Position numbers and translations under genes: made by a program
The notes under the pieces: generated by a model
Databases searched by the model: none
The model's input: the letters and a program-made list of their open reading frames with translations, nothing else
What the model was told of the DNA's origin: nothing
Origin: an uncultured Asticcacaulis sp.
GTDB taxonomy: Bacteria > Pseudomonadota > Alphaproteobacteria > Caulobacterales > Caulobacteraceae
Length of the DNA stretch: 47,063 nucleotides
Assembly (NCBI GenBank): GCA_936940865.1
Contig: CAKZJB010000193.1
Coordinates: 1-47,063, forward strand
Direction of reading: 5' to 3'
Shown here: one piece after another, positions 1 to 12,659 of the stretch
How the letters are laid out: each line of letters starts with the position of its first letter
Position numbering within the stretch: the first letter of the stretch is position 1

Positions 1-514
1 GGAGCCAGGGCGAGGGGATCCCATGGCTTGGCCCCGTATCACCGTGCTCTGCGATGCGACCCGGATCGAGCACGAAAGCGAATCGGATCAACGCATTAGA
101 AGTCGATTTCTTCGCCGGCACCCTAAAGCGAAGCTCTATGCTTCATTTCGGGACTTCGCATTCTTTCGACTTGTACCAAAATCTGCCAGTCTGAACGGCG
201 GCTTCGGACGTGCATACATTATTTCTGGTGATGACTTGGTCATTGCTTCCGCGCTCAATGCAGAGATTGGCGCGCGGGAGTTGTACTTAATCGATGAACT
301 TGAAAAGCGTGGTTGTAACGTTGCCGATGCGCTCGCCTCGCACTATTTTCAAGAAAAAACAGATAATTGGTATATTAGCGGCGTCGATGCGGAAGGTATC
401 GATATCGCGCGGAAGGAGAAGCTCCATCGCCTGGAGCTAGTAAGTCTTGCCTCCGATCTTAGCGGTTTGATTGCAGAGTATTCGAATGTTCTAAATTGGT
501 TACCAAAAAATTAA
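1..514 (+). CDS. HugZ-like pyridoxamine 5'-phosphate oxidase family protein, 3' part
   Basis: The reading frame is open to the left edge, so the ATG at 23 is probably internal. The codons before it (GAG CCA GGG CGA GGG GAT CCC) run into a pattern like the family's GDPLAGPRVT segment. Then come RSRFLRRHPKAKLYASFRDFAFFRL and GGFGRAY, which match the split-barrel FMN-binding or haem-utilisation (HugZ-like) family. The tail has WYISGVDAEGIDI, like the C-terminal DUF2470 domain. The His-containing motif usual in DUF2470 (HMNADH) is not visible; the segment reads LYLIDELEKRGC. Known members bind flavin or haem in the cytoplasm; substrate unknown here. Base composition is clearly more AT-rich than the housekeeping genes to the right. 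The family call is from remembered motif patterns. Confidence 0.6.
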   Translation, partial: EPGRGDPMAWPRITVLCDATRIEHESESDQRIRSRFLRRHPKAKLYASFRDFAFFRLVPKSASLNGGFGRAYIISGDDLVIASALNAEIGARELYLIDELEKRGCNVADALASHYFQEKTDNWYISGVDAEGIDIARKEKLHRLELVSLASDLSGLIAEYSNVLNWLPKN

Positions 515-621: not shown

Positions 622-939
622 ATGAAAATGAGAAAGCTTTCAGAACATTCTGCATCCGCTGCCGCATTGCTTTCGGCCATGGCGAACCCCAAGAGGCTGC
701 TCATTTTGTGCAACCTGGTCAACGGTGAAGTACCGGTGGGCGTGCTCGCGACGCAGGTTGGACTGAGCCAGTCAGCGCTGTCGCAGCACCTGTCCAAGCT
801 TCGCGCGCAGAAACTGGTGAAGACGCGGCGTGACGCCCAGACGATCTACTACTCCAGCAATGCCAGCCAGGTCCTGACAATTCTCGATGCACTCGAGACC
901 ATCTATGGTGTAACGACGGAGAACAAGTCGGCCGCCTGA
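622..939 (+). CDS. ArsR/SmtB-type winged-helix transcriptional regulator
   Basis: A 105-residue protein with the ArsR pattern: an N-terminal helix (ASAAALLSAMANPKRLLILCNLV), the recognition helix-turn-helix LSQSALSQHLSKLRAQKLV around residues 49-67, and a wing with RRDAQTIYYS. Such proteins are dimeric repressors that usually release DNA on binding metal or other small ligands. The ELCVCDL metal-binding motif of arsenic and cadmium sensors is absent (the segment is NGEVPVGVLA), so the signal is probably not a thiol-bound metal; some relatives respond to redox or sulfur species. The 107-bp region upstream is AT-rich and may carry its operator. The next gene is on the opposite strand, so no operon partner is evident. 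Confidence 0.85.
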   Translation: MKMRKLSEHSASAAALLSAMANPKRLLILCNLVNGEVPVGVLATQVGLSQSALSQHLSKLRAQKLVKTRRDAQTIYYSSNASQVLTILDALETIYGVTTENKSAA

Positions 940-1010: not shown

Positions 1011-1532
1011 TCAGACGTGAGGCTCATCCATCGCGCCCTTCCTCTTGGCCATCAGACGCTCGAGGATGCCGAGCATCAGGGCCGACAGCACGAAGGCGAG
1101 ATGTATACCGGTCATGACGACCAGCTGGATGGTCTCGTATTTGTCGGAGTTCAGGAAGACCTGCAGCAGGTGGATCGAGGAGATCGCCACGATCGACGAG
1201 GCGACCTTGATCTTGAGGCTCCCGGCGTCGAGTTTGCCGAGGAAGGAGACCTCGCCGTCATGCTCGTCGAAGCGGCTCACGAAGTTCTCGTAGCCTGAAA
1301 TCATCACCATCACCACGAGGCTGGCGACCAGGGCGGCATCGATCAGGCCGAGCATGGCGAGGATCATGTCCGCTTCGCCGAGCGTTGTCACGGCGCCGGC
1401 AACCTTGATGAACTTGCCGATGAACGATGCGGCATAGACGAGCAGCGCCGCGGCGAGGCCGAGATAGAATACAACGAGGATCCAGCGCGCAGCCAGGATG
1501 ATGCGTTCGACGAAAAGTTCGAGTGATTTCAT
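1011..1532 (-). CDS. YqhA/UPF0114-type four-helix inner-membrane protein
   Basis: A 173-residue integral membrane protein. I place the start at the ATG at 1532 ([12 protein letters not shown]), preceded by AGGGGAC; the in-frame extension to 1658 adds 42 residues that look non-coding. Four hydrophobic spans are visible, near residues 12-38, 52-78, 106-125 and 132-155, with the conserved [11 protein letters not shown] and [23 protein letters not shown] segments typical of UPF0114. The function of the family is not established. It lies convergent to the ArsR gene in the anomalous left block. Confidence 0.8.
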
Positions 1533-1736: not shown

Positions 1737-2345
1737 ATGCTCTCAGCGCTCGCTGCCGCGTCGATGCTGCTCGTCCTGCCTTTCGGTGACATGTCCTGGG
1801 GCGCGGAGACCAGGGCGGTCAAGGAGAAGGTCAATCCGCTCGCCGGCTGCTGGCCGATCCTCCTGCAGATTCCGGTTTTCTTCGCGCTCTACAAGGTCAT
1901 CTATATCACCATCGAAATGCGCCATGCGCCCTTCTACGGCTGGATCAAGGACCTGTCGGCGCCCGATCCGCTTACCATCATGAACCTGTTCGGCCTGATC
2001 CCCTACGACCCCAGCGCCGTGCCGTTCATCGGCGGCTTCCTGGGCGGCCCCCTGCATATCGGTCCGGTGGCCATCCTGTACGGCCTCAGCATGTGGGCCA
2101 GCCAGAACTTCACCCCGATGACCGGCATCGACCCGATGCAGAAGCGCATGATGGCCTTCATGCCGCTGGCCATGATCTTCTTCTTCTCGCAGCTGGCCAT
2201 CGGCCTGATGATCTACTACTTCTGGTCCAACCTGCTGACCATCCTGCAGCAGTATTCCATCATGCGCCGCATGAAGGTCGACAACCCGATCGACGATCTT
2301 CTGGCGAAGATCAGCGGCAAGACCGAAAAGAAGACGGCCGCGTGA
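1737..2345 (+). pseudogene. yidC: 5'-truncated, chimeric yidC (membrane insertase C-terminal remnant)
   Basis: From about 1821 the frame reads [20 protein letters not shown] and on through [35 protein letters not shown] and [14 protein letters not shown]. This is the C-terminal part of the Oxa1/YidC insertase core. A normal proteobacterial YidC is about 550-600 residues. Missing here are the first transmembrane helix, the whole periplasmic beta domain, and the first core helix with the conserved Arg of the hydrophilic groove (R366 in E. coli). In their place is a signal-peptide-like start ([24 protein letters not shown]) from ATG 1737; the frame stays open back to 1557. As YidC is essential, an intact copy should exist elsewhere, or the junction is an assembly artefact. 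The 3' end overlaps the engB start (GTGA), the native order. Confidence 0.85.
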
Positions 2346-3001
2346 CGCCTGAATCGCCCGACTCTCCCGACGCCATCGATCCCGAAACCCTGGAACGGGC
2401 GCGCGTGCTGTTCGCGCGCCCGGCCAGTTTCGTCATGGGCGCGGCCAAGATCGCGCAACTGCCGGACACCAGCCTGCCCGAAGTGACCTTCGCCGGCCGC
2501 TCGAATGTCGGCAAGTCGAGCCTGATCAACGCCCTGGTGGGACAAAAGCACCTGGCGCGCGCCTCGAACGAGCCCGGCCGCACGCGCGAGGTCAACTTCT
2601 TCCTGGTCGACGATGCCCTGCACCTGGTCGACCTGCCGGGCTACGGCTGGGCCAAGGCGTCGAAGACCGAGGTCAAGAAGTTCCAGAATCTCGGCCGCGA
2701 CTACCTGCGCGGCCGCCCGAACCTGCACCGCGCCTATCTTTTGATCGACGCGCGCCACGGCGTGAAGACGGTCGATGCCGAGCCGATGGACGCACTCGAC
2801 TCCGCCGCCGTCAGCTACCAGATCGTGCTGACCAAGGCCGACAAGATCAAGCCGGCCGAACTGGAAAAGGTCAAGGCCGCTACCGTCGAAGCCATCCGGA
2901 AGCGTCCGGCGGCCCACCCGGTCGTGCTGGCGACCTCGTCGGAAACGGGCCTCGGCATTCCGGAACTGCGCGCGGAAATCCTCCGGGTCTGCGGATTGTA
3001 A
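2342..3001 (+). CDS. engB: Ribosome biogenesis GTPase EngB (YihA/YsxC)
   Basis: A 219-residue TRAFAC GTPase needed for late 50S subunit assembly. The G1 P-loop GRSNVGKS is at residues 52-59, followed by GRTREVNFF (switch I), DLPGYGWA (G3), TKADK (G4) and ATSSETG (G5-like). The likely start is the GTG at 2342, which overlaps the yidC stop codon (GTGA) and implies translational coupling. The open frame upstream is read through yidC and is not coding. Length and motif order match the family, and the yidC-engB-argB order is common in alphaproteobacteria, which makes the truncated yidC in front of it all the more striking. Confidence 0.95.
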
Positions 3002-4937: not shown

Positions 4938-5000
4938 GCTTTTACCGTTTCGTCGCGAAAAGGACATGACAGCGCCGCGTGCGTGCGCTATGGCGCGCGC

Positions 5001-5933
5001 ATGACCGATACGCCCTACACGCCTGAAGAAGAAAAAGGCTGGGCCACCGCCAAGACGCTGGCGGAAGCCCTGCCCTATATCCAGATCTACGACCGCGAAA
5101 TCGTCGTCATCAAGTACGGCGGCCACGCCATGGGCGAAGAAGCGACGGCCAAGCTGTTCGCCTCGGATATCGTGCTGCTCAAGCTTCTGGGCATCCACCC
5201 GGTCGTGGTCCATGGCGGCGGCCCGCAGATATCGGCCATGCTGGGCCGTGCGGGCGTCAAGTCGACCTTCATCGACGGCCTGCGCGTCACCGACGACGCC
5301 ACCATGGAAATCGCCGAAATGGTGCTGTCGGGCGCGGTCAACAAGGAAATCGCCAACTGGATCACGCGCGCGGGCGCCGAAGCCGATGTGCGCGGCGTCG
5401 GCCTGTCGGGCAAGGACGCCGGCCTGATCACGGTCGAAAAGGCCACGCGCACCAAGAAGGATCCGGATTCGATGATCGAACAGGTCATCGACCTCGGCTA
5501 TGTCGGGGAACCCAAGCGCGTCGACGACAAGCTGATCCGCACCCTGATCGGCGATCCGAACCACGACTATGTGCCGGTGATCGCACCGATCGGCGTCGCC
5601 GAGGACGGCCTGACCTATAACATCAATGCCGACACGGTCGCGGGTGCTGTCGCGGGCAAGCTCGACGCCAAGCGCATGCTGCTGCTGACCGACGTGGTCG
5701 GCGTGCTGGACGAGAACAAGGAGCTGATCCGTCAGCTGACGATCTCGGAGGCCAGGGGACTGATCGAATCGGGCGTCGCCTCGGGCGGCATGATCCCCAA
5801 GCTTGAGACCGCCATCGCCGCCGTCGAAGCGGGCGTCGAGGCCGTGGTCATTCTCGACGGCCGCCGCCCGCATGCCATGCTGGTCGAGCTGTTCACGGAA
5901 CACGGCGCGGGCACGCTCATCAAGGCCGACTAA
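5001..5933 (+). CDS. argB: Acetylglutamate kinase
   Basis: A 310-residue amino-acid kinase that phosphorylates N-acetyl-L-glutamate, the second step of arginine synthesis. Visible motifs are the nucleotide-binding [11 protein letters not shown] near residue 34, [11 protein letters not shown], the substrate-binding [15 protein letters not shown] and [10 protein letters not shown], and the C-terminal [21 protein letters not shown]. An N-terminal extension of about 30 residues before the first beta strand is typical of arginine-sensitive enzymes that assemble as hexamers. ATG 5001 is chosen; a GTG at 4983 is in frame. The stop codon sits in the loop of a strong intrinsic terminator. Confidence 0.96.
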
Positions 5934-8192: not shown

Positions 8193-8681
8193 ATGGACGC
8201 AGCGACTTTAGAAGCGTTGGCTGCGTTTCCCGATCGTCTGGAAGCGCATTACGCCGCCATTCCGGACGGGTTTCAGCTGTGGACGCCGCCGTCCTGGGAG
8301 ACGTGTCCCAGCGAACATTATTCGGCGCTTGAGCAACTGTGCCATGTCCGCGATATCGAGACCGACGGCTATCATGTGCGGTTCGTTCGGGTGCTGCGTG
8401 AGGACCATCCCTATTTGCCGGGCGTCGATGGTGACCGGCTGAGGGTCGAGCGCGCCTATGCCGAGGCCTTCGCGCCGGATGTGCTCAAGGCGTTCCGCTT
8501 TGCGCGGGAAGAAACGCTCGAGCTGCTGGGCACTGTGTCGCCGGAGCAGATGGAACGGACGGCGGAGTTCGAGGATTACGGCCGGGTGACGTTCCGGGCG
8601 CTGATCCATTATCTGTGCAGCCATGACCAGCAGCATCTGGCGGGGTTGCAATGGCTGACCGCGAAGGCGCTCTCCAATTAA
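8193..8681 (+). CDS. DinB-fold (DfsB/YfiT-like) protein
   Basis: A 162-residue protein of the DinB four-helix-bundle superfamily. The putative metal-binding histidines are in LEQLCHVRDIE near residue 50 and in CSHDQQHLAGLQWL near the C-terminus, the spacing expected for this fold. The ATG at 8193 is preceded by AAGGGA and lies 5 bp after dapD, so the two are probably co-transcribed. Members are often metal-dependent thiol transferases or of unknown role; nothing here identifies a substrate. Confidence 0.8.
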   Translation: MDAATLEALAAFPDRLEAHYAAIPDGFQLWTPPSWETCPSEHYSALEQLCHVRDIETDGYHVRFVRVLREDHPYLPGVDGDRLRVERAYAEAFAPDVLKAFRFAREETLELLGTVSPEQMERTAEFEDYGRVTFRALIHYLCSHDQQHLAGLQWLTAKALSN

Positions 8682-8701
8682 CGGGGTTTGGGGGTGAGGC
8701 T

Positions 8702-8786
8702 CGCCGGTTTGCTGAAGGCAAACCGGATGAAATCGAGACCAAATGTCTCGATTTCCGGGCCGAACGCCCGGAGCCATGCGGAGGGC
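8702..8786 (+). repeat. 85-bp structured intergenic repeat, left inverted copy
   Basis: Contains a 9-bp stem (CCGGTTTGC/GCAAACCGG), an 11-bp stem (GAAATCGAGAC/GTCTCGATTTC, loop CAAAT) and a third stem (CCGGGC/GCCCGG), then GAGCCATGCGGAGGG. The reverse complement of 9994-10078 matches it end to end with only about ten differences, mostly in loops. Confidence 0.85.
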
Positions 8787-8898
8787 CGGTGGTGGCGCCT
8801 CCGAACTCTCAAGAAGCACCGAAAAAGAATCCGTCAATATTTAGTTGCAATGCCGACAAAGTTCTAGCTTCAATTGCCCGATTTGGGGAGGCTTCGAA

Positions 8899-9885
8899 TT
8901 GAACAAACCACCTAGCAAGGCACCGCGGAGGAACGGCAGTCAAAAAACAGCGGGGACGGCGCAGCCGAATAGTCTTTCACAAGCCGGCCTCTCTCCCAAA
9001 AAGAAACTCGGTAACGGTAAAAAGCTAAAACTAAGAAATTATATCAACGGATTAAAACGTATCAAAACGGCCGAGTGGATCATGATTGGATTCACAGCAG
9101 TTACTGCGGCGGCTTCATGGGCTGGAGTATGGGTAGCGCACAACCAGTGGAAATCCATGAATGCTCAATTGCAAGAAATGAAAAGCGGCAGCGCTGATAC
9201 TCACAATTTGGCAGTCGCAGCGCAAAATCAAGCTATCGCAATGGACAGGCTCAAAGTCGCCGGGCAGAATCAAGCCGTAGCCGCCTCCCGACAAGCTGAC
9301 GCAACCTTAGCTCTCGCCAATGGCGCTGCCGCCCAGTTGAAAGCGATCACTGCCACTGCTGACGCGGCGAAACAACAAGCAGCGGCGGCCATATTATCAA
9401 GTAAATCAACGGATCGACTAGCGCAATCTGGAGCAAAACAAGTTGAAGCACTTTTCGAAAGCGATAGGCCTTGGGTCGCCATTAGCTTGCCCAATGCCGA
9501 TCCTCCAGTCGTAGGTCAAGATTGGGTGATATCGGCACCGTTTGGTAACGTGGGAAAAAGCGCGGGTTTCGATGTCAGCTGGAATTTTAAAGCCCAAGTC
9601 GTGAATGCCGACGGTCCTTTCGAAGTTTTGAGTCCATGCAGTGAACCATGCTCCCACATTTTTCTTTTGCCAGGCGAAATGCAAAGATTGCCGTACACTA
9701 AACCTGCGGCAGAAATGGATCAAAAATTTATAGATGATCTCCAAAACAAAAAGAAATTTATGATAATACAGACATACGTAGAGTATAAAAGTTCAGATGG
9801 CAGAAAAATGACCTCACAAGGATGCTATTGGTATGCTCCGAAATTAGGATTTACAAGCTGCCGCATTGGAAATAAAGCACAATAA
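8899..9885 (+). CDS. Unknown single-span membrane protein, low-GC, bracketed by inverted repeats
   Basis: A 328-residue protein. I take the TTG at 8899 as start because GGGGAG at 8885-8890 is spaced 8 bp before it; the open frame extends to 8845. A basic, low-complexity N-terminus is followed by one membrane span (EWIMIGFTAVTAAASWAGVWVAH, near residues 53-75). Next is an Ala/Gln/Asn-rich coiled-coil-like stretch with imperfect repeats (AVAAQNQAIAMDRLKVAGQNQAVAASRQADATLALA). The C-terminal domain (ESDRPWVAISLPNADPPVVG, NVGKSAGFDVSWNF, CSEPCSHIFLLPGE) resembles a small beta-sandwich. The base composition is much more AT-rich than the neighbouring genes, which suggests recent acquisition. No function is claimed. 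Confidence 0.72.
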   Translation: MNKPPSKAPRRNGSQKTAGTAQPNSLSQAGLSPKKKLGNGKKLKLRNYINGLKRIKTAEWIMIGFTAVTAAASWAGVWVAHNQWKSMNAQLQEMKSGSADTHNLAVAAQNQAIAMDRLKVAGQNQAVAASRQADATLALANGAAAQLKAITATADAAKQQAAAAILSSKSTDRLAQSGAKQVEALFESDRPWVAISLPNADPPVVGQDWVISAPFGNVGKSAGFDVSWNFKAQVVNADGPFEVLSPCSEPCSHIFLLPGEMQRLPYTKPAAEMDQKFIDDLQNKKKFMIIQTYVEYKSSDGRKMTSQGCYWYAPKLGFTSCRIGNKAQ

Positions 9886-9993
9886 TTATCTGAAAAATCC
9901 GATTTCATTGCGAATAAATAGATACTTCTCCGCCTCCAGGACAAGGCTTTTTATTGAATAAAAAAGGCGTGGGGTCATGGACCCCACACCCCT

Positions 9994-10078
9994 GCCCTCC
10001 GCATGGCTTCGGGCGTTCGTCGCGGAAATCGAGACATTCAGTCTCGATTTCATCCGGTTTGCCCGAGGCAAACCGGCG
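9994..10078 (-). repeat. 85-bp structured intergenic repeat, right inverted copy
   Basis: Read on the minus strand it gives CCGGTTTGCC-tcg-GGCAAACCGG, then GAAATCGAGAC-tgaat-GTCTCGATTTC, then GAAGCCATGCGGAGGG, matching 8702-8786 in inverted orientation. It lies just beyond the 3' end of clpB, between clpB and the low-GC gene. Confidence 0.85.
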
Positions 10079-10082
10079 CTCC

Positions 10083-12659
<2,577 letters not shown>

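Follow-up and report, generated by a model that had tools for sequence, protein, structure and literature searches.

The half yidC gene near the start of contig C193 is most likely an assembly error from mixed-organism data and no new kind of protein, a reading that is strongly supported though not proven. Both C193 and a second contig of the same assembly, C178, are very probably chimeric, with Asticcacaulis-type, Rhizobiaceae-like and Sphingomonas-like DNA assembled together. Segments of the two contigs differ in their affinities, the native halves of yidC are complementary and lie on separate contigs, and one short string is common to both joints. The window analyzed is the whole of C193 (47,063 bp), one of the 245 contigs in an assembly of 5,073,473 bases with a reported completeness of 99.98 and contamination of 3.12. 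The assembly is apparently Asticcacaulis. Among named relatives of the ArgB of C193, Asticcacaulis come first (90-91%), and two other relatives are closer (97% and 93%).

Table 1. Features at the left end of contig C193, with coordinates in the window
Feature	Coordinates	Strand	Remarks
HugZ/CREG-like gene, 3' part, truncated where the contig begins; foreign block	2..514	+	Pfam CREG_beta-barrel, E 4.4e-7
ArsR-family regulator; foreign block	622..939	+	Pfam HTH_5; 70% identical to Sinorhizobium sp. K101 across 93 residues
YqhA / UPF0114 protein; foreign block	1011..1532	-	Pfam UPF0114; 90% to P0005 of a Rhizobiaceae bacterium MAG
Signal-peptide-like start (35 codons) of an unrelated gene; foreign block	1737..1841	+	identical to residues 1-35 of P0121
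19-base string common to the C193 and C178 yidC joints	1822..1840	+	AGGAGAAGGTCAATCCGCT
yidC stretch apparently of Rhizobiaceae type rather than genus type	1842..1934	+	putative second switch; boundary blurred
Native (Asticcacaulis-type) yidC 3' part	1935..2345	+	80% (protein) and 0.835 (DNA) identical to G003
Native engB	2342..3001	+	86% to G003
Native argB	4983..5933	+	91% to G003; named relatives Asticcacaulis

The truncated yidC frame

In the frame at 1557-2345 the match to the Pfam family 60KD_IMP begins only at position 61 of a profile of 163, and the YidC N-terminal model TIGR03593, which matches the copy on C178, does not match this frame. The frame therefore has neither the periplasmic domain (TIGR03593) nor the complete 60KD_IMP core of a functional YidC insertase, in agreement with the claim of an earlier note on this DNA that yidC is cut and its N-terminal part missing. 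C193 resembles a locus for the YidC membrane insertase (60KD_IMP, TIGR03592/TIGR03593) in having the 3' part of the gene with native engB and argB downstream, the order also found in the relative G003 and correctly described before, but its frame has no yidC start, periplasmic domain or first core part, the native 5' half being on C178. A foreign signal-peptide-like start is joined in frame to the yidC 3' part at 1821-1822. Recognizable YidC had been said to begin abruptly near 1818-1821; the abrupt start holds, but its place is 1821-1822, and the sequence is clearly of genus type only from about 1935.

The foreign left block

Genes of HugZ-like, ArsR and YqhA type, all three confirmed by Pfam matches, fill the left end of C193, and the block is AT-richer, as the earlier note had stated: the GC content is 0.557 in 1-1736 and 0.638 in 2346-47063. 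In tetranucleotide composition, 1-1821 lies at a distance of 0.374 from the rest of the contig, a value surpassed by only two of 86 chunks of the same size taken from that rest, both at about 8.3-8.8 kb. These two, the largest distances in the contig, fall in an AT-rich stretch at 8346-10400 (GC 0.464 at 9001-10000) that contains a 346-aa frame (8845-9885); a search of a plasmid collection with 8800-10000 gave no match.

The named relatives of the left block are mostly Rhizobiaceae. The HugZ-like frame is 44% identical to a frame adjoining the ArsR gene in Sinorhizobium sp. K101, so that the two genes are neighbors there too. The Rhizobiaceae MAG protein is the highest-identity named relative of YqhA among the 120 listed of 7,993 matches, and yqhA is present in 7 of the 31 genomes searched, the own genome included. 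A second YqhA of the assembly (L047, G000:C60:14845-15369) is 69% identical to that of C193 and resembles those of other genus members; it is perhaps the native copy. DNA of 1-1900 matches 124 records of the plasmid collection, 96 of them from Rhizobium, and no record in that collection spans 80% of it (best 25%).

The signal-peptide-like start belongs to an unrelated protein, P0121, of 313 aa, which after residue 35 continues EQPMIF and not as YidC; P0123 (81% identical across the matched part) also continues EQPMIF. Three proteins were listed for the start from 90 candidates: two have no YidC sequence after it, and the remaining one comes from C193 itself. When P0121 was compared as a protein, the motif KEKVNPL, corresponding to the 21 bases at 1821-1841, was found to be encoded by P0121 and yidC alike. 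A search of the assembly for the remainder of the P0121-like gene returned nothing beyond the 35-residue piece. Nineteen plasmid records carry a P0121 relative, all with less than 60% identity; in Rhizobium leguminosarum pSK03 a 47% relative and yqhA are separated by about 85 bp, in an orientation unlike that of C193.

The missing native half on C178

The assembly has one copy each of rnpA and rpmH, for which a search had been proposed, and both are on C178 beside the native yidC 5' half, in the order rpmH, rnpA, yidC, engB. In G003, rnpA, yidC, engB and argB are consecutive. Compared with G003, C178 is 70% identical in RnpA and 60% in the YidC N-part, followed by 47% in the YidC C-part and 57% in EngB, while C193 reaches 80%, 86% and 91% in the YidC C-part, EngB and ArgB. 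The identities are thus split between the contigs in such a way that the native yidC is divided across the two. The other part of C178 is Sphingomonas-like: the three best loci for its EngB (83-88%), among the best 80 of at least 574, are all Sphingomonas, and from the yidC motif through engB its DNA aligns with Sphingomonas sp. Root710 over 1,164 bases at 84% identity.

The YidC C-part, used as a query against the assembly, matched at two places, C193 and C178:13157-13633 (53% identity), and neither of these is a continuous native yidC. The 30 other genomes searched have a single YidC match apiece, and the frames that contain it measure 593-671 aa. The earlier note had offered two explanations, wrong joining of contigs or breakage of a duplicated yidC through a large rearrangement. 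The latter is rejected, since the same query revealed no second native copy in the assembly; the former is favored by the finding of the native 5' half, rnpA and rpmH on C178, a contig that passes into a foreign yidC at the motif of the C193 joint.

The string shared by the two joints

Allowing at most one mismatch, the 17-base core of AGGAGAAGGTCAATCCGCT occurs at two places in the assembly, the C193 and C178 joints. At the yidC motif, G003 and Root710 have exactly 21 bases in common, against 15 and fewer than 14 for G003 and the two other Sphingomonas loci tried. Only G003 and L008 have 21 bases in common with Root710 at the joint; the other pairs tried have 14-17 or fewer, partly elsewhere.

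Inter-genome chimeric contigs are a known class of artefact of mixed and metagenomic assemblies. C193 and C178 resemble them in that segments of differing taxonomic affinity meet at a short identical string in a conserved gene, with the missing native piece found at the C178 joint; C193 differs in that its join is in frame and yields a plausible-looking fusion. Chimeric contigs and misassembly are the subject of published papers. DNA of Asticcacaulis type, Rhizobiaceae-like DNA and Sphingomonas-like DNA would have been assembled in one mix, and the conserved yidC motif (E/K)EKVNPL would have served as the crossover site, where some 19-21 bases common to the genes may have let the assembler switch. 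On C193 the foreign head would end in a gene that has no relation to yidC but encodes KEKVNPL by chance, and on C178 the native yidC would pass into a Sphingomonas-like yidC. We infer that the assembler, rather than the cell, made both joins, and a small k-mer was presumably the cause.

A possible second switch

Between the joint and the native 3' part, a second switch may have occurred (Table 1). Identities were computed over all 18 genus relatives and all 19 foreign loci of the class. Over 1845-1934 the DNA is 0.711-0.811 identical to the genus relatives and 0.822-0.922 to the foreign loci, a contrast that is biased because the foreign loci were picked as the best for this segment, while over 1935-2345 the values are 0.637-0.835 and 0.577-0.674. 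The change in G003, the worst of the 18 genus relatives in the first segment (0.711) and the best in the second (0.835), is free of this bias. Rhizobiaceae records match 1815-1945 at 88-89% (5 of 8 records). The boundary is not clean, since C193 and G003 agree in every base of the block 1863-1880 in a comparison of 12 of 14 loci (all except L188 and L191), which took in 6 of the 19 foreign loci. The three best foreign loci for 1845-1934 have a YqhA only 39-43% identical to that of C193 and so do not name the donor. A three-codon insertion is absent in C193, but this is weak evidence: of the 18 genus relatives, the pattern read the motif in 12, and 6 of these carry the insertion.

Further suspect joins

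The EngB frame of C178 (L003:8637-9371, G000:C178) ends in a 27-residue tail resembling the end of ATP synthase alpha. Six of its 11 weak PDB matches are alpha chains of ATP synthase or hybrid F1 (best E 0.014), and it has no match in Pfam. The tail is followed at the end of C178 by a gene start that we take to be atpG-like, and the two together are probably a second false join. A full copy of atpG is on C28, and a second, partial copy opens C98 (L164:1-600), followed by atpD; this extra copy and the reported contamination of 3.12 also speak for a mixed assembly. The best match of this atpG-atpD region is a Sphingomonas record (81%); Shinella and Sinorhizobium follow at 77-80%. C98 is probably a contaminant contig. 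The start of C98 and the atpG of C28 have no common string of 14 or more bases.

Alternative explanations

One point against a chimera is that both joins, on C193 and C178, preserve the reading frame. This would fit a real event in which foreign DNA recombined into yidC and the hybrid of native and Sphingomonas-like yidC on C178 kept the essential function, and the YidC of C178 is indeed one full-length frame (model NF002353, 720 bits against a cut-off of 365). We regard such an event as very unlikely: it requires that at least two donors exchanged DNA at one motif, with the products on two contigs, and that a foreign engB carries the ATP synthase alpha-like tail. All 30 other genomes have their single yidC match. 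A double exchange in the cell is improbable, and chimeric assembly accounts for the data by ordinary steps. It is harder still to credit a genuine genome in which the essential yidC was split and rebuilt from two foreign donors at one motif, with an orphan 3' part that captured a signal peptide.

The in-frame signal-peptide-like start ahead of the C-terminal helices could also suggest a short YidC-like protein of a new kind, equipped with a signal peptide. This is the least probable of all and is rejected, since the start consists of residues 1-35 of the unrelated P0121 and, among the proteins listed for it, only that of C193 continues as YidC. Chimeric assembly of C193 and C178 is thus the preferred reading. 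The protein predicted from the C193 joint, P0122, has already been entered in a protein collection, and a highly rated assembly (99.98 complete, 3.12 contaminated) can hide in-frame chimeras of essential genes that resemble novel fusions.
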